34,041 bases of DNA from Candidatus Gastranaerophilales bacterium (GTDB taxonomy: Bacteria; Cyanobacteriota; Vampirovibrionia; Gastranaerophilales; JANQFW01), in the NCBI GenBank assembly GCA_028282645.1, contig JANQHM010000110.1:1-34041 (forward strand), given 5' to 3'. Position numbers and translations under genes: made by a program. Below are positions 1 to 26,723 of the stretch, piece by piece; position 1 is the stretch's first letter, and each line of letters opens with the position of its first letter. The notes under the pieces are model-generated. The model searched no databases. It saw only the letters and a program-made list of their open reading frames with translations, and was not told where the DNA came from.

Positions 1-1041
1 ATCGGCAACGGCAATGCCACACAAACTAACAACAATGTAGCCACTACAGCTACAGCGGCTCAGGAGCCTGCTACAACTGCACCGGCATCTACAAGTACAG
101 ACCAAGCTAATGTTGCGGTTGGCGGTGATAATGTTAATCAGGCTAATGCAGCTGTAAGCTCGACAACTGATATAAGTACGACCTCTACAAGTGCTACTGA
201 TTCAACAGAGCCTGACGTAATTGATAATCTAAACAATGCAAAAGGCATACTGGCCCAAGTAAGCGAAGAAGAAAGAAAATTAGTTCAGGATGTAGATTTA
301 ACTCAAGAGAAAAATGGTAAGCCTTTATACTTAGTAGCAGAAGGTTCAAAAGATAAACAATATCACATCTATAAACAGAATAAATCTAAATATACCTGCA
401 TCACAAGAATTGAGTACGGAAATAATAACTTATATCCGAAAGGAAGAAAAGAATTCGAATTAGATTCTGAGGCTCAAGTATATAAAATCAATTCTAAATA
501 TAGAACAGGTTCTCCTTTAATATTAGATACAAATAAAGACGGTAAAGTTAGTGCCACACAAGGAATGGGCGTAGATATTAACAATGACGGCAAAGCTGAC
601 GGGGCTGCTACAGGCGGAGATAAAATGCTGGCAATGGGCGATCTGAATAAAAACGGTAAAATAGACGGTTCCGAAGTATTCGGTAATGAAACCGTAAGTC
701 CTATTTCCGGCAAAAAGCTTAATTCTGCTAACGGATTTGAGGCCCTTAAGCAAATAGCTCAAGAAGCTCAGGATGCAACAGGCCATACTATAATCCGAGC
801 CGGTGAAGTTGACGTACCTGTACTTAAAACAGCATTAGAAAAGTTAGGCGTTAGTTCTTTAGGATTAATTGACAGTAATAACGTTACTAATTTAGAATCA
901 TTAGGCGATATCAAATCTATTAATACTAAATATGAAGAACAAGACGCTTACGGAGATGTTCAACACAGACAACTCGGTTCTTACAAGAGTAACGATGGTA
1001 ATACGCATAAAGTAAATGATGTTTGGTTCAAATTAGCTTAA
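1..1041 (+). CDS. Secreted/surface-type protein with calcium-loop (EF-hand/dockerin-like) motifs, 5' partial
   Basis: The frame is open from the first base to a TAA at 1039-1041, so the gene starts before the window; 346 residues are visible. The first ~75 residues are a Thr/Ala/Ser/Asn-rich low-complexity linker, as in exported or cell-surface proteins. From about residue 177 there are three spaced Asp/Asn-Gly loops, DTNKDGKVS, DINNDGKAD and DLNKNGKID, the pattern of EF-hand or dockerin-type calcium loops. The C-terminal ~140 residues carry no motif I recognise. No membrane segment or sorting signal is visible in this part. A strong terminator follows at once. Calcium binding is inferred from the loop pattern; the function is unknown. 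An adhesin, an envelope protein or an appendage-associated protein would all fit. Confidence 0.75.
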   Translation: MGNGNATQTNNNVATTATAAQEPATTAPASTSTDQANVAVGGDNVNQANAAVSSTTDISTTSTSATDSTEPDVIDNLNNAKGILAQVSEEERKLVQDVDLTQEKNGKPLYLVAEGSKDKQYHIYKQNKSKYTCITRIEYGNNNLYPKGRKEFELDSEAQVYKINSKYRTGSPLILDTNKDGKVSATQGMGVDINNDGKADGAATGGDKMLAMGDLNKNGKIDGSEVFGNETVSPISGKKLNSANGFEALKQIAQEAQDATGHTIIRAGEVDVPVLKTALEKLGVSSLGLIDSNNVTNLESLGDIKSINTKYEEQDAYGDVQHRQLGSYKSNDGNTHKVNDVWFKLA

Positions 1042-1063: not shown

Positions 1064-1089
1064 AAAGCCTCGATTTCGAGGCTTTTTTT
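1064..1089 (+). terminator. Rho-independent terminator after the calcium-loop protein gene
   Basis: Stem AGCCTCGA / TCGAGGCT (1066-1073 with 1076-1083) with a two-base loop, extended by A-T pairs and followed by a run of T. It lies about 25 bases after the stop codon. Confidence 0.85.
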
Positions 1090-1201
1090 ATGAAGAAACA
1101 AAAACATATAAAATAGCAATTTTTTATATATCTTTGTTTTTATAAATATATAAAAGATAATTATTGCATGATATACATTTAAGTTAATCAGGTAAGGTTT
1201 G

Positions 1202-1290
1202 ATATACTAAGTCAAAAATACTTTTCAGATTATTCAATCGTGTAAAAGCTAATAAAATAAGCTATTCTCTAAATTTAAAAAAGGGAACGT
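1202..1290 (-). repeat. R1 dispersed repeat, partial or divergent copy (reverse orientation)
   Basis: Bases 1202-1239 are the exact reverse complement of the right end of the R1 copy at 1576-1613. Similarity continues to the TATTCTCT core at about 1262-1270 and then changes to a different tail. The same tail (GTGAAATGG-CAATTTTA) recurs near 18400-18440, so this looks like a subfamily with an alternative half. Confidence 0.7.
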
Positions 1291-1420
1291 TAAAGAGTGA
1301 AATGGGCAATTTTATTTTTTATAAGCTCATTCCAATCAATCGTATTAAAACTAATGAAATCAACTATTTTTATATCCAATATTAAATGATACTCGCCAAT
1401 ATACAGACAACCTGTATTTT

Positions 1421-1448
1421 AAAGCCTCGCTTTTGAGGCTTTTTTTTT
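1421..1448 (+). terminator. Second terminator, near-twin of the one at 1064
   Basis: Stem AAAGCCTC / GAGGCTTT (1421-1428 with 1435-1442), then T-rich sequence. It has almost the same stem as the terminator about 360 bases upstream, but no gene ends between them. It may be the 3' remnant of a lost gene copy, or may insulate the next gene. Confidence 0.75.
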
Positions 1449-1506
1449 CTGCTTATTTTTTCAATTTTAAAAATAAAAGGAAAAATATGATAAACTAATG
1501 TATATT

Positions 1507-1613
1507 TATTCTGATACTCAATTAAATTTCAGATCACTCTTTTCAGAGAATAGTTAATTTCATTAGGTTTAACAAGATTGAATAATCTGAAAAGTATTTT
1601 TGACTTAGTATAT
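1507..1613 (+). repeat. R1 MITE-like element, full-length copy (about 107 bp)
   Basis: It shares with the copies at 26724 and 27182 (reversed) the order ACTCAATTAAATTTCAG, TCTTTTC-GAGAATAG, GATT...AATCTGAAAAGTATTTTTGA and an AGTATA end. AAATTTCAGAT near the left end and ATCTGAAAAGT near the right end are imperfect inverted repeats, so the element can fold back. It ends four to five bases before the ribosome site of the glycosyltransferase gene. Confidence 0.75.
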
Positions 1614-1630
1614 ACAAAAAGGATAAAGAG

Positions 1631-3448
1631 ATGGAAAATAATATAAATCAAATAAAAAATTTTTTAAAAAATAAAATTAGCCCGCCTAAGTATGCGCAGC
1701 TTTATGCTTCTAAAAATTATGATGAGCTTAATAATGAATTTTTAAGCATATGGAGCTATTTTTGGAAAAATAACATATATGAGCTTGATCAGGAGCTTAA
1801 ACAACTGTTAAATTATTTTGTGGAAAGTTTTTTATATTATTTTATCAAGCCTGACTATGAAATCAAAAATGAACATAGTATTGCTTACCTTAAATATAAT
1901 TCTATAATATCTAATATAGTAGCTGTATCAGATTTTAAAAACACTGATTTTCAGTTAGAAATACTAAAACACTCGCCCAATAATTTTATAAAACTGCTTA
2001 CTTTGTACTCTATGAGAAATACTGTAAAGTTTGACAGCAGCAGGTTTTTTGATGTAAGTCCTTATCACGCTTCCTTATGGTATTTTTATTATACCTGGAT
2101 AAACGATTATGCTTCAGAAAATACGTTTAATAATATTGTTGAGCACCTACAAAACGTGGATGACAGACTTAAGCTTGCTACTACAATGTTTCATGAAGCT
2201 TATTTTTGCTGTACTTACTTAGGTATTCATAATGATAAAAAAATAAAAAATAAAATAAACAGTATTTTAAAGCCGGTATTACAAGATATACAAATAAATA
2301 ACACCCCTGATAAAAAGAAAGTAGCTATTGTCACAGGTAAGTGGATACCAACAACTGCTGTTTACAAAAGTTGTTTCGGTTTTATAGAGTCCTTGAAAGA
2401 TGATTATGATCTTGCACTGATTCATCTGGGGCCTGATAACTCAAGAATAGATACTTCTATATTTAAAGAGGTAAAACAAATAAAGCTACAAGGTAATAAT
2501 ATTACAATACCTGACGATATTAAAACTAATGATTTTGCATTTGCATATTTTACGGATATTGGAATGATGCAAGAAAGTATTTATCTTGCAAATATGCGAT
2601 TAGCACCTATACAAGCCGCAGGCTACGGTCACCCTGCCAGTACATATGGAGCTAAAATTGATTACTGGATAGGCGGAGAACATGTAGAACTGCGTGAAAT
2701 GGCCGGAGATAATTATTCAGAAAGATTGGTGCTTATCCCAGGTTTAGGCCAACACCCTGTTTTACCTACTTTTAAAAGAAAAAAATCCAGAAAGAGAAAA
2801 TCTAATAAGATAATAATTAACTGTTCCTGGGGTATCAAAAAAATTAATTATCCTTTAATAAGCTACTTAAAAGAAATACTTGATAGGTCAAACAAACAGT
2901 TATTATTTAGATTTTATGTTAGTGGCGGTGCTTTATACAGATTTAACAATTATATTCCTTTTAAAGAAAGCATAGAAAATATACTTGGCAAGGATAATGT
3001 GGAAATTTTTGCTGAAAAAAAATATGATGAGTATATGGAGCTGATGGAAGAGGGCGATATATCTTTAGATTCTTTCCCTTACGGCGGTTATAATAGTATT
3101 GTTGATTCTATTTACCTTAGAAAGCCTTTCATATCTTTTGAGGGGGACAGATTCTTTAGTAGAGCAGCATCACAGCTTTTAAGAGAGTTGGATTTATCTG
3201 AGCTTATTTCTGTAAATAAAGACGAGTTTATTGATATAACCGTTAATCTTATTAATAATGATAATTACAGAAAAAAATTAAATAAAAAGCTTATGGACAA
3301 AGATCTTAACCAGACTTTGTTTTTCTCGGGACTTGATAAAAACTTTAAATATGCTGTTGATTATTTAATTGAAAATAATGAAGATATAAAAAATGAAAAC
3401 AGTACCGAACCAATATTAATCAGTAAGGTTATGGGCTTGACTGTGTAA
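1631..3448 (+). CDS. HMW1C-like protein glycosyltransferase (GT41 family)
   Basis: Predicted cytoplasmic glycosyltransferase that would transfer a sugar from a nucleotide donor to protein side chains. The 605-residue length, a ~225-residue helical N-terminal part without recognisable TPRs, and a C-terminal GT-B-like half match the HMW1C/NGT branch of GT41 better than TPR-bearing O-GlcNAc transferases. Visible GT41 signatures are AAGYGHPAST (~res 330), a YSERLVLIPGLG segment, DISLDSFPYGGYNSIVDS (~res 475) and FEGDRFFSRAASQLL (~res 505), the last two resembling the donor-site region of GT41. The ribosome site AAGGA is about 7 bases before the ATG. It is a single gene with its own terminator. 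The upstream Thr/Asn-rich surface protein, the flagellin and the pilins are possible acceptors, but nothing here proves a partner. Confidence 0.75.
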   Translation: MENNINQIKNFLKNKISPPKYAQLYASKNYDELNNEFLSIWSYFWKNNIYELDQELKQLLNYFVESFLYYFIKPDYEIKNEHSIAYLKYNSIISNIVAVSDFKNTDFQLEILKHSPNNFIKLLTLYSMRNTVKFDSSRFFDVSPYHASLWYFYYTWINDYASENTFNNIVEHLQNVDDRLKLATTMFHEAYFCCTYLGIHNDKKIKNKINSILKPVLQDIQINNTPDKKKVAIVTGKWIPTTAVYKSCFGFIESLKDDYDLALIHLGPDNSRIDTSIFKEVKQIKLQGNNITIPDDIKTNDFAFAYFTDIGMMQESIYLANMRLAPIQAAGYGHPASTYGAKIDYWIGGEHVELREMAGDNYSERLVLIPGLGQHPVLPTFKRKKSRKRKSNKIIINCSWGIKKINYPLISYLKEILDRSNKQLLFRFYVSGGALYRFNNYIPFKESIENILGKDNVEIFAEKKYDEYMELMEEGDISLDSFPYGGYNSIVDSIYLRKPFISFEGDRFFSRAASQLLRELDLSELISVNKDEFIDITVNLINNDNYRKKLNKKLMDKDLNQTLFFSGLDKNFKYAVDYLIENNEDIKNENSTEPILISKVMGLTV

Positions 3449-3593
3449 TATTATTTTTGTTTATTTAATATTACGACATGTAAATAAAATAGTAAATATA
3501 AGCAATCAAACTCTAGTGCAATACTTTATATATATATAATGAATGTATAGCTTCCTGAACTTACTTCCCAACATTCCCTTCCTATTTGAAGTG

Positions 3594-3620
3594 TTACCCA
3601 GATAATGGGTAATTTTTTTT
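3594..3620 (+). terminator. Rho-independent terminator of the glycosyltransferase gene
   Basis: Perfect stem TTACCC / GGGTAA (3594-3599 with 3607-3612), seven-base loop, then eight T. It lies about 145 bases after the stop codon, in the convergent space before the pilin genes. Confidence 0.85.
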
Positions 3621-23817: not shown

Positions 23818-24384
23818 CTATACTTTTAAAAAATGAAATTTTTTAAATTTTTCGTCTAATTGAAAATCCAGTTTTGTATTTTTTTTTCTAGTAAAAAATA
23901 AATCATTATTATCATTGTTATTTACGAAGCAAAGTACAAAATTAATAAAATTTTCAGGGGAGGGGAATTGACTTAAAGTAATTCTATACATTGAATCATA
24001 ACCAAAATGAGCATGATAAGCTGTATGTATATAATCTATATGTGCGTCAATATCACAGTCAAACCTTATATAATTATCTTTTGAAATTTCTTCCGGGTTT
24101 GGCAAAAAAGCTAAATTTGCTTTTTTTAATTGATCCTCCTTTACTTCATAAAACAATTGAAAACAGGAAAGATCCCCTAATTGAAAGCTATATTGTTGCT
24201 TATCAATGACATGTTTAAAAAACTCCTTGTATGAAACATTTAATTTTTTAGGCTCATATTTATTCCATGATAAAATACCCTTGGCTTTGTCAATATAAAA
24301 GTTAGGGTTTATAATGCCCGACTTTTTATAGTTATAATTATAGTATGTTTCCAAGTCATACTTTAATCGTTGAATTAAGTCCAT
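23818..24384 (-). CDS. DUF2290-like protein paired with helicase
   Basis: 188 residues. The central and C-terminal pattern FDCDIDAHIDYIHTAYHAHFG then RITLSQFPSPENFINFVL resembles the DUF2290 family as I remember it (His/Asp-rich middle, arginine, then SP-x2-F-x2-F). There is no known function. No signal peptide or membrane segment; the protein is Lys/Asn/Phe-rich and probably cytosolic. Its ATG is 8 bases after the stop of the helicase gene, with AGGTGA about 12 bases upstream overlapping the helicase end, so the two are one transcript. The pairing suggests a partner or effector of the helicase, perhaps in phage defence; this is inference from architecture only. Confidence 0.5.
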   Translation of the reverse strand: MDLIQRLKYDLETYYNYNYKKSGIINPNFYIDKAKGILSWNKYEPKKLNVSYKEFFKHVIDKQQYSFQLGDLSCFQLFYEVKEDQLKKANLAFLPNPEEISKDNYIRFDCDIDAHIDYIHTAYHAHFGYDSMYRITLSQFPSPENFINFVLCFVNNNDNNDLFFTRKKNTKLDFQLDEKFKKFHFLKV

Positions 24385-24392
24385 AAGTAAAA

Positions 24393-26546
24393 TTATTCAC
24401 CTGTTAATTTTTTTATTAATGCTTTTTTTTCATCTTCTGTTAGTTTTTGAATAATATCACTATCAACATTTAGTATTTCGTTTATGTTACTTTTAGTTTT
24501 CTTTAGTTCTTTAACTCTTTGTTGATACTCTTCGTTACTTAGTTTTCTTTTTATTTCTTTCATATCAGGAAACGGAAATTTAAAATAAGGAATTTCTTCT
24601 TTAGTTTTCTTAATTTCATTAACAGCTCTTTCCATATTGTTTCCAATGCCTGTTAATATACACCATCCTTTTGCTCTGGAAATAGAAATAAATGCTTGAT
24701 TTCTTTTAACTACCTCATCTATAGACGTATACAGGTTATCAAAATTCATAATATATACTTTAAAGGCCTCATTACCTTTAGCTTTGGAAACTGTTGAAAT
24801 TGTGACAAAATCTTTTTTTATAAATTGATCTTTTGTTGTACTAATTCCTGGAATTAAAGATAAAATATTTTTATTGTAAAGTTGATTCTGTAATTCTGTA
24901 GAATAATCTTTAAAATTTTTATTGCCAAAGCTTATTACTAAAATATGGTTTGGCTCCATTTTGTTCTCTTCAATATCCCGTTCTATACTTTCTGCAATCC
25001 AGTTAATTTCTTCTTCTCTATCCTCAAACGATTTAGATTCAAATAATTCAGAAGAGCCTGTATAAAATTTTTGTATTAAATTAGGACTATTTTCAGGAAG
25101 TCTTTTAATTTTAGTATCTTGGTTGAAAATAAGATCACCTTTAACTATTTCATATCCAATAGACTCCCATATATTTTTTTTATCGATCATTTGAACAATA
25201 CCATCTTTGTTATAAATACCCAGCCCTATTGAATGAGCAAGCATTAAAATATCTAAAGGATTTCTGTATGACTTTTTTAATATTAAATCAGTATCCTCCT
25301 TATGTTCTTCACTTAATTTATTAAGGTCTACAAGCTTTTTTCCATGTTCATCAAAACCAAATAATTCTCCAGTGTCAGGTATTTCAATATTTTCAAGGCT
25401 TTGTAGCTCATCATAAGCCCAAACTATACGCTTTGGCGTTTTCGTTAATTTATAAATTAGCTTATAAAATGATTTTGGAAAATCTTGGGCTTCATCCATT
25501 AACACTAAATCATATTCCTCTTTTAAGTCTTGATCTAATAATTGATTGCATACATTATTAAAATTATTATCATCACCATAAGATAGCGGTTTTAATTCAT
25601 TTTGCACACAGGCTCTGTAATAAACGCCCTCTTTATACCTTCCTCCCCAACTGTGTAAAATTTTTAAATTTTCCCAATTGGGTTCTTTATCAGTCTTGGA
25701 TTTATAAAAATCCAGGACTAAATTAAAAACTTGATCATAAAGACTTTGGGTATTAAAAGTATATAAAATTTTATGTTTAGGATATCTTCGGTGATGGTTA
25801 GCAGCTTTTTGAGCTAAAACAATAGTTTTTCCTGTTCCTGCAAGCCCTCTAATTCTATGAGGACAACTTATATCTTTAATAGCAATGCTAAACTGCTCAT
25901 TATCTAATAACTTCATCTCTTTTTGTATGCTTTTTATGGCATCACCTTTTATATTTGATTTTTCAAGCTTTAATTTGGACTTGTGATCTGTGAATATATC
26001 AACGCCTTGAGTAATTGACTTTATTGATATCCAATTGTGTTCGTCGTATTGCACAATATTTTGCCAATAATCATTAAAATCCAAGTTTAAATAATCATCA
26101 AAGATATAAAAAGCTTTATTTTTTTCATATTCTTTAGGAAATTTTTTTTCAAAAGACTTTTCATTAATATTAGGCAATATTATAGATTTATTAATATTAA
26201 GCTTGTTTCTCAAAAACCTGTATGATTCATAGGGTTTTTTTATTGCATACTCATAATCATCTAATAGATCAATGGGATGATCTATTAATTCACCATATAT
26301 AAGCCAACCATCTTCATTAATTTCTTGAATTTCTTCTATTTTACACTCCAATGACTCAATTATTAAAAAACCATAATTTTTTGCAATTATAACTATATCG
26401 GGCAAATAATTTTGTATACCATTAGCTAAAGGATATTTATAAAAGCAATATCCATCAATATCAGTGTAATTTTTATCTATTTTATCGTAAATTTGCTGAA
26501 TAGATAATTTGTTCTCTATTCCTTTTATGGTTTTTTGACATTCCAT
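24393..26546 (-). CDS. SF1 (UvrD-like) helicase with nuclease-like N-terminal region
   Basis: About 717 residues from the chosen ATG at 26546, which has GGAG six bases upstream; the frame stays open to an ATG at 26630 that lacks a ribosome site. Helicase motifs in order: I GLAGTGKTIVLAQ, Ia ILYTFNTQSL, II LVLMDEAQDFP, III VWAYDELQSL, IV LKKSYRNPLDIL, V TISTVSKAKGNEAF and VI QAFISISRAKGW. This is a complete SF1A set, similar to COG3972-type helicases. The ~200 residues before it contain LPDIVIIAKNYGFLIIES, resembling the D...E strand pair of NERD/PD-(D/E)xK nucleases, but the expected Lys after Glu is not obvious. A Lys/Glu-rich tail follows. It is transcribed first in a two-gene unit with the DUF2290-like gene. 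Confidence 0.78.
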   Translation of the reverse strand: MECQKTIKGIENKLSIQQIYDKIDKNYTDIDGYCFYKYPLANGIQNYLPDIVIIAKNYGFLIIESLECKIEEIQEINEDGWLIYGELIDHPIDLLDDYEYAIKKPYESYRFLRNKLNINKSIILPNINEKSFEKKFPKEYEKNKAFYIFDDYLNLDFNDYWQNIVQYDEHNWISIKSITQGVDIFTDHKSKLKLEKSNIKGDAIKSIQKEMKLLDNEQFSIAIKDISCPHRIRGLAGTGKTIVLAQKAANHHRRYPKHKILYTFNTQSLYDQVFNLVLDFYKSKTDKEPNWENLKILHSWGGRYKEGVYYRACVQNELKPLSYGDDNNFNNVCNQLLDQDLKEEYDLVLMDEAQDFPKSFYKLIYKLTKTPKRIVWAYDELQSLENIEIPDTGELFGFDEHGKKLVDLNKLSEEHKEDTDLILKKSYRNPLDILMLAHSIGLGIYNKDGIVQMIDKKNIWESIGYEIVKGDLIFNQDTKIKRLPENSPNLIQKFYTGSSELFESKSFEDREEEINWIAESIERDIEENKMEPNHILVISFGNKNFKDYSTELQNQLYNKNILSLIPGISTTKDQFIKKDFVTISTVSKAKGNEAFKVYIMNFDNLYTSIDEVVKRNQAFISISRAKGWCILTGIGNNMERAVNEIKKTKEEIPYFKFPFPDMKEIKRKLSNEEYQQRVKELKKTKSNINEILNVDSDIIQKLTEDEKKALIKKLTGE

Positions 26547-26723
26547 AAGATTCTCCATAAAAAAAGTTTGATGCCTAAGTTTTAAAATAAATATTCTTAC
26601 CAGATTTTTTATTATTTTAACATAATTCATAAATTTGAAATAATTTATTTCTTTATGCTTTATTTATTAATTATAGAAACTTTACTATATTTTAATAGTC
26701 TTAAAATTTAGTATAGAATTTTT

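Follow-up and report, generated by a model that had tools for sequence, protein, structure and literature searches.

A GT41 enzyme of a cyanobacterial NGT-sister subfamily in Gastranaerophilales: a candidate protein glycosyltransferase with altered acceptor recognition

Introduction

A gene of a Gastranaerophilales genome raises the question of whether its product is a cytoplasmic protein glycosyltransferase related to HMW1C and, if so, which proteins it would modify. The gene lies in the window, by which we mean the whole stretch of DNA analyzed here (34,041 nucleotides). The window is contig C75 (JANQHM010000110.1) of a Gastranaerophilales MAG, G000, with a genome of 3.11 Mb in 307 contigs.

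OGT and SPINDLY, which also belong to GT41, carry a TPR superhelix in place of the all-alpha N-terminal domain (AAD) (PMC3983070). The residues of AaNGT that form the donor site and those that read the sequon have been described (PMC10507012). Arg177 and Asp215 of AaNGT are critical, are conserved among NGTs and read the Thr at position +2, and the Arg177Ala mutant is inactive (PMC10507012).

In the open-access literature, the article parts covered contained nothing on the subfamily analyzed here. HMW1C and cyanobacteria were not joined as a finding in the articles checked, where HMW1C appeared in reference lists only; the A. minor AmGGT paper, in the parts available, likewise cites HMW1C only among its references (PMC12159676). 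Judged by title and abstract, articles combining Gastranaerophilales and glycosyltransferase were not on this topic, and none of the open-access articles searched combined Melainabacteria, glycosyltransferase and flagell.

Family membership and predicted fold

The open reading frame begins with ATG at 1631 and ends with a stop codon at 3448 on the forward strand, and it encodes a protein of 605 amino acids. Pfam GT41 (PF13844, cut-off 25 bits) matched this protein with 40.9 bits, confined to residues 466-564, and the NCBIfam NGTferase model NF049992 matched residues 69-565 (E 1.6e-36). The NF049992 score of 126.1 bits did not reach the equivalog cut-off of 1000 bits for UDP-glucose:protein N-glucosyltransferase. 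A single-sequence search of PDB returned ApNGT and AaNGT as the top matches (E 6e-23). When a 5-row profile of the genus proteins was compared with PDB, ApNGT scored 139 bits over residues 108-565, and OGT/SPY chains did not exceed 50 bits, with matches limited to about 90 residues at the C-terminus. The hhalign comparison with NGT gave a full-length profile match (100%, E 8.7e-43, residues 26-563). Sequence identity to HMW1C/NGT enzymes was about 21%. No TPR was found in the enzyme by Pfam, and no Rfam match was found within the window.

An AlphaFold model built from an alignment of 12 homologues, including one true NGT row (from genome G574), had a mean pLDDT of 86.9 and a pTM of 0.86, and it superseded an earlier 5-row model with a pLDDT of 65.6. 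Structural alignment with AaNGT (8p0q) gave Z 35.3 and rmsd 3.4 over 564 residues, beginning at model residue 7. Chains of SPY and bacterial OGT aligned through the catalytic part with Z 24-35, over roughly 420-500 residues versus about 560 for NGT. In Foldseek, ten NGT chains ranked first (E 1e-28 to 2e-25, TM 0.75-0.80; 8p0q_B, TM 0.80), and OGT/SPY chains followed at E 5e-18 and weaker, with TM of about 0.5-0.6.

The TPR-free AAD (1631..2296, forward strand) consisted of helices only, up to residue 217. Model secondary structure and the AaNGT alignment placed a GT-B catalytic domain at residues about 223-588 (2297..3394, forward strand). The 564-residue alignment and the NGT-first ranking indicate that the window enzyme has the N-terminal helical domain seen in NGT. 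These results confirmed that the enzyme is a GT41 member of HMW1C/NGT architecture, as the original prediction had it.

Distribution and phylogeny

The enzyme, described earlier as standing alone, is not a single copy: a second one with 42% identity to the window enzyme was present in the same genome (G000:C294), and the sister genome of the same genus, G001, carried three copies. The window enzyme was 91% identical to its orthologue, and its frame was open. A scan of genome contigs gave one match, the sister MAG (JANQFW010000014.1, 91%). Full-length copies were found in 2/60 relatives, namely the own genome and the sister; three others had weak partial GT41 matches. Among 382 genomes of the class, the full-length match was in the own genome only; 38 others gave matches to part of the protein, none above 113 bits.

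Full-length copies outside this genus were found in cyanobacteria. Across the 386 phylum genomes, such copies (496-683 bits) occurred in four cyanobacteria, two of which carried two copies each; a fifth, G574, had a true NGT-type enzyme (145 bits). Within the order of genome G487, the gene was present in 11/243 genomes, eight of them new, which brought the cyanobacterial genomes to 12 altogether. These homologues shared 33-43% identity with the window enzyme. The gene of G596 (L118:7896-9737) was divided into two ORFs by an in-frame stop, either as a pseudogene or through an assembly error. G574 (L099:1-8000) encoded a true HMW1C/NGT-type enzyme in which the Arg/His/Asp triad was kept, divergently oriented from an ORF of at least 1913 amino acids resembling a surface or autotransporter protein.

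In a phylogeny of 63 rows, a clade of 11 that included the window enzyme (100/99) was separate from four NGTs (100/100) and from 48 OGT-like rows (100/98). The OGT-like rows were the 48/56 loci that covered the GT-B domain, and the NGT side held four rows only. The five genus rows grouped together (99/96) inside the clade, where they were joined with enzymes of true cyanobacteria; the cyanobacterial rows formed no resolved group of their own. Because the tree lacks an outgroup, it is the shared AAD and the full-length match, rather than rooting, that support a sister relation between this clade and NGT. The enzyme did not cluster with sugar-polymer glycosyltransferases, the result on which its assignment had been made to depend, and its clade stood apart from both HMW1C/ApNGT and the OGT/SPY-like enzymes. 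We consider the fold and clade placement very probably correct.

Among mobile elements, five pattern matches on viral contigs included no relative, and phage records gave none. Plasmid records (86, mostly from Escherichia and Salmonella) held HMW1C/EtpC-type and GT41 enzymes, with 21-28% identity among the matches listed; of these, only Caballeronia served as an NGT row. Loci of Azospirillum and Acaryochloris were included as OGT-like; the family profile matched the latter, and the former gave no row. Within its order a single sampled genus has the gene, whose kin are cyanobacterial copies; this patchy presence suggests that it was likely acquired laterally from a cyanobacterium and then duplicated.

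Donor site and sequon-reading residues

Six of the 14 donor-site residues of AaNGT were kept in the window enzyme (Gly369 as Gly333, His370 as His334, Lys440 as Lys404, Tyr500 as Tyr468, Asn520 as Asn488 and Asp524 as Asp492). The positions of His276, Ser277, Arg280, Thr437, His494, Ser495, Thr519 and Gly521 were changed. By alignment, the donor-site loop Gly333-His334-Pro335 is encoded at 2627..2635, Lys404, whose counterpart is the pyrophosphate residue, at 2840..2842, and Asn488 and Asp492 at 3092..3106, all on the forward strand. Lys404, Asn488, Asp492 and Gly333-His334 were kept in 5/5 genus proteins. The sugar contacts His276 and Ser277 were replaced by Thr and Ala; the donor of the window enzyme may therefore not be UDP-glucose.

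At the place of the sequon reader Arg177, the window enzyme has Asn158 (2102..2104, forward strand; MAFFT and hhalign agreed), so that this residue is lost. His188-Glu189 (2192..2197, forward strand) stands at the place of His214-Asp215 by hhalign, and by MAFFT for Glu189. NGTs had Arg in 4/4 and Asp in 4/4; the genus proteins had Arg177 in 0/5 and Asp215 in 0/5, with Glu (2), Val (2) or Gly (1) at the latter. The cyanobacterial homologues differ from the window enzyme here, most of them keeping His276 (12/15) and Asp215 (10/15); the 15 sequences include three fragments or contig-cut ones. By manual count, 8/15 had an Arg one column past Arg177, which makes the alignment of this position uncertain in the cyanobacterial members. 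Across the 17 full-length members of the clade and the NGTs, sixteen residues did not vary, including Lys404, Asn406, Gly333 and Tyr468; a further 36, among them Arg129, Trp150, Tyr151 and Asp202, were invariant in those clade members only.

By these alignments, the donor machinery is retained in part and the acceptor reader altered. With the sequon-reading pair changed, the enzyme should not follow N-X-S/T in the manner of an NGT, and it probably marks different proteins than NGTs do. The substitution of Glu189 for Asp215 is mild, and Thr binding could be retained. The dyad, the equivalog cut-off and the tree placement all came out against an NGT proper, and that claim fails; of the predicted NGT type, the architecture held, while the enzyme lies in a sister clade at 126 versus 1000 bits and lacks the sequon-dyad Arg. 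The likeliest reading is still that it works like an NGT.

Gene neighborhood

The protein encoded upstream at 1-1041 (forward strand), described earlier as a Thr/Asn-rich surface-type protein, is indeed a low-complexity protein adjoining the enzyme gene, but the contig end truncates it, leaving only the C-terminal portion of a longer protein. It comprises the end of an Asn/Thr-rich repeat region and an EF-hand-like C-terminal domain, as seen from the ORF, Pfam, an intact counterpart and family members in G000 and G001. The intact counterpart in G001 (L015:10957-12813) has 618 amino acids with QTNNN-type repeats and the EF-hand-like C-terminal domain. Its gene lies upstream of the orthologous enzyme gene at a gap of 182 bp, versus 589 bp in the window. 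Downstream of the enzyme, the window carries pilin genes, and in G001 the pilin-cluster gene was on another contig. The pairing in the window and in G001 is one inherited arrangement and not two independent cases.

A gene for a low-complexity protein adjoined 4/5 genus enzyme copies. The paralogues at C294 and C86 had their own, different low-complexity neighbor downstream, one per genome, and these two neighbors matched each other weakly (E 0.009). The third paralogue (G001 C92) had no such neighbor; two tandem thymidylate-kinase-like genes (L013:7085-8449, named by eye) adjoin this copy. The partner C-terminal domain was found in 12/60 relatives, 10 of which were without the full-length enzyme, so that the domain is not tied to the enzyme. 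Members of the EF-hand partner family also occurred as tandem pairs elsewhere in both genomes (L030:7746-10770, L032:204-3347), some with Asn-rich repeats of QSNNS type.

Terminator-like hairpins were found on the forward strand at 1064..1085, between the partner and GT41 genes, at 1421..1442 and, past the GT41 gene, at 3593..3613. The hairpins between the two genes suggest that these are probably not on one transcript. An interspersed hairpin repeat is inserted between the genes at 1195..1620, with 72-nt inverted arms at 1202-1273 and 1542-1613. This high-copy repeat has a typical unit of about 133 bp and resembles a MITE or REP-like family. With each hairpin half counted, G000 had 115 matches and G001 had 80. 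Elsewhere in the window (23818-26630), a DUF2290 protein adjoins a UvrD-like helicase, possibly as a mobile or defence pair.

Pfam detected no two-partner adhesin or transporter family (tpsA/tpsB) among the 29 window ORFs, the upstream side being cut by the contig end. The predicted position outside the two-partner adhesin context was thus borne out, and the window differs in this respect from the HMW1C two-partner subset. Among the loci listed, the cyanobacterial homologues had neither a neighbor common to different genera nor a surface protein regularly beside them, and a neighbor conserved in cyanobacteria was rejected on this basis.

Candidate acceptors and sequon counts

N-X-S/T sequons were counted in the proteins that might serve as acceptors. 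The window part of the partner had 4 versus 5.1 expected, and the G001 partner had 7 versus 13.7 expected, with 1.8% of shuffles as low. A sequon-rich partner was ruled out, N-X-S/T being at or below chance. No enrichment was seen in flagellin (5 versus 3.8 expected) or in the three short pilins (0, 0 and 2), and the long pilus protein had 10 versus 7.4 expected, a count reached by 19% of shuffles.

Flagellin was encoded in 21/60 relatives, compared with 2/60 for full-length enzyme copies. These counts do not support the general flagellin and pilin glycosylation system that had been proposed for the lineage, and with N-X-S/T enriched in neither group a flagellin- or pilin-directed system was rejected.

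Outside the window, an RTX protein near a G001 copy had 17 sequons versus 9.0 expected, although its Asn/Asp-rich repeats could alone produce this excess. Near the C86 copy (L012:11768-18501) lie an RTX-like repeat protein and, preceding it, two TPR proteins whose C-terminus is weakly GT9-like.

Discussion

Our preferred reading, to which we give a probability of roughly 50%, is that the window enzyme is a soluble GT41 protein glycosyltransferase of a cyanobacterial subfamily sister to the NGTs, with altered acceptor recognition, and that it likely acts on the neighboring protein. As we infer its working, this soluble GT-B enzyme would bind a nucleotide sugar, probably a UDP-hexose, through Lys404, Asn488, Asp492, Tyr468 and Gly333-His334. 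The likeliest acceptor would be the neighboring Asn/Thr-rich EF-hand repeat protein, which would be glycosylated in the cytoplasm and exported afterwards. On grounds of homology, the enzyme is probably an active protein glycosyltransferase. The identification of the neighbor as its acceptor comes from the gene pairing and is tentative.

The enzyme resembles HMW1C, ApNGT and AaNGT in its combination of AAD and GT-B, its length, the equivalents of Lys440, Asn520, Asp524, Gly369-His370 and Tyr500 and the absence of TPR. It differs from them in its low identity, its separate clade, the loss of the sequon Arg and a score below the equivalog cut-off. A strict functional NGT, which would place glucose on the Asn of N-X-S/T in several surface proteins and tolerate the changed dyad, is unlikely. 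The nearest solved relatives are ApNGT and AaNGT, His188-Glu189 occupies the His214-Asp215 place, and Asp is found at 215 in 10/15 cyanobacterial members. However, Arg177 is missing in 5/5 genus proteins and its change to Ala inactivates AaNGT (PMC10507012), position 215 is Val or Gly in two of the paralogue groups, the partner sequons are at or below chance, and the enzyme falls in a separate clade. With OGT and SPINDLY the enzyme shares the GT-B catalytic fold and the C-terminal GT41 motif, and their chains reach Z 24-35 against the model. The Thr in the QTNNN-type units of the partner repeats would also suit a Ser/Thr O-glycosyltransferase of this kind, in which a helical domain replaces the TPRs. 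We nevertheless consider such an enzyme improbable: the window protein has an AAD and no TPR, the tree sets it apart from the 48 OGT-like rows, and OGT/SPY chains align over roughly 420-500 residues versus about 560 for NGT.

That four of the five genus copies adjoin low-complexity proteins, and that the model contains a full-length AAD, the domain by which NGT binds peptide, argue against a sugar, lipid or metabolite as acceptor. The differing donor-site contacts, and cyanobacterial loci listed that share neither a neighbor nor a constant surface protein, would fit such a non-protein acceptor, which we regard as a rather poor prospect. It is very improbable that the protein is catalytically dead and serves for binding or as a chaperone; the changes of His276, Ser277 and Thr437 would be in line with this, but Lys404, Asn488, Asp492 and Gly333-His334 are kept in 5/5 genus proteins, and the frame is open at 91% identity to the orthologue.

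The cyanobacterial homologues resemble the window enzyme in their 33-43% identity and the 36 clade-only invariant residues, and differ from it in mostly keeping His276 and Asp215 and in neighbors that vary between genera. More speculatively, an undescribed AAD-type GT41 subfamily of Cyanobacteriota may use a code other than N-X-S/T, and in one gut genus of Gastranaerophilales each copy may have specialized as a protein glycosyltransferase paired with a fast-changing repeat protein of its own, the EF-hand partner, for example, being glycosylated on its QTNNN repeats.

If this is true, a second subfamily that reads acceptors through a different surface would illustrate how acceptor choice can evolve while the fold stays fixed, and it could supply enzymes of other sequence preference. 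For Gastranaerophilales, it would also be a first lead towards the glycosylation of surface proteins.
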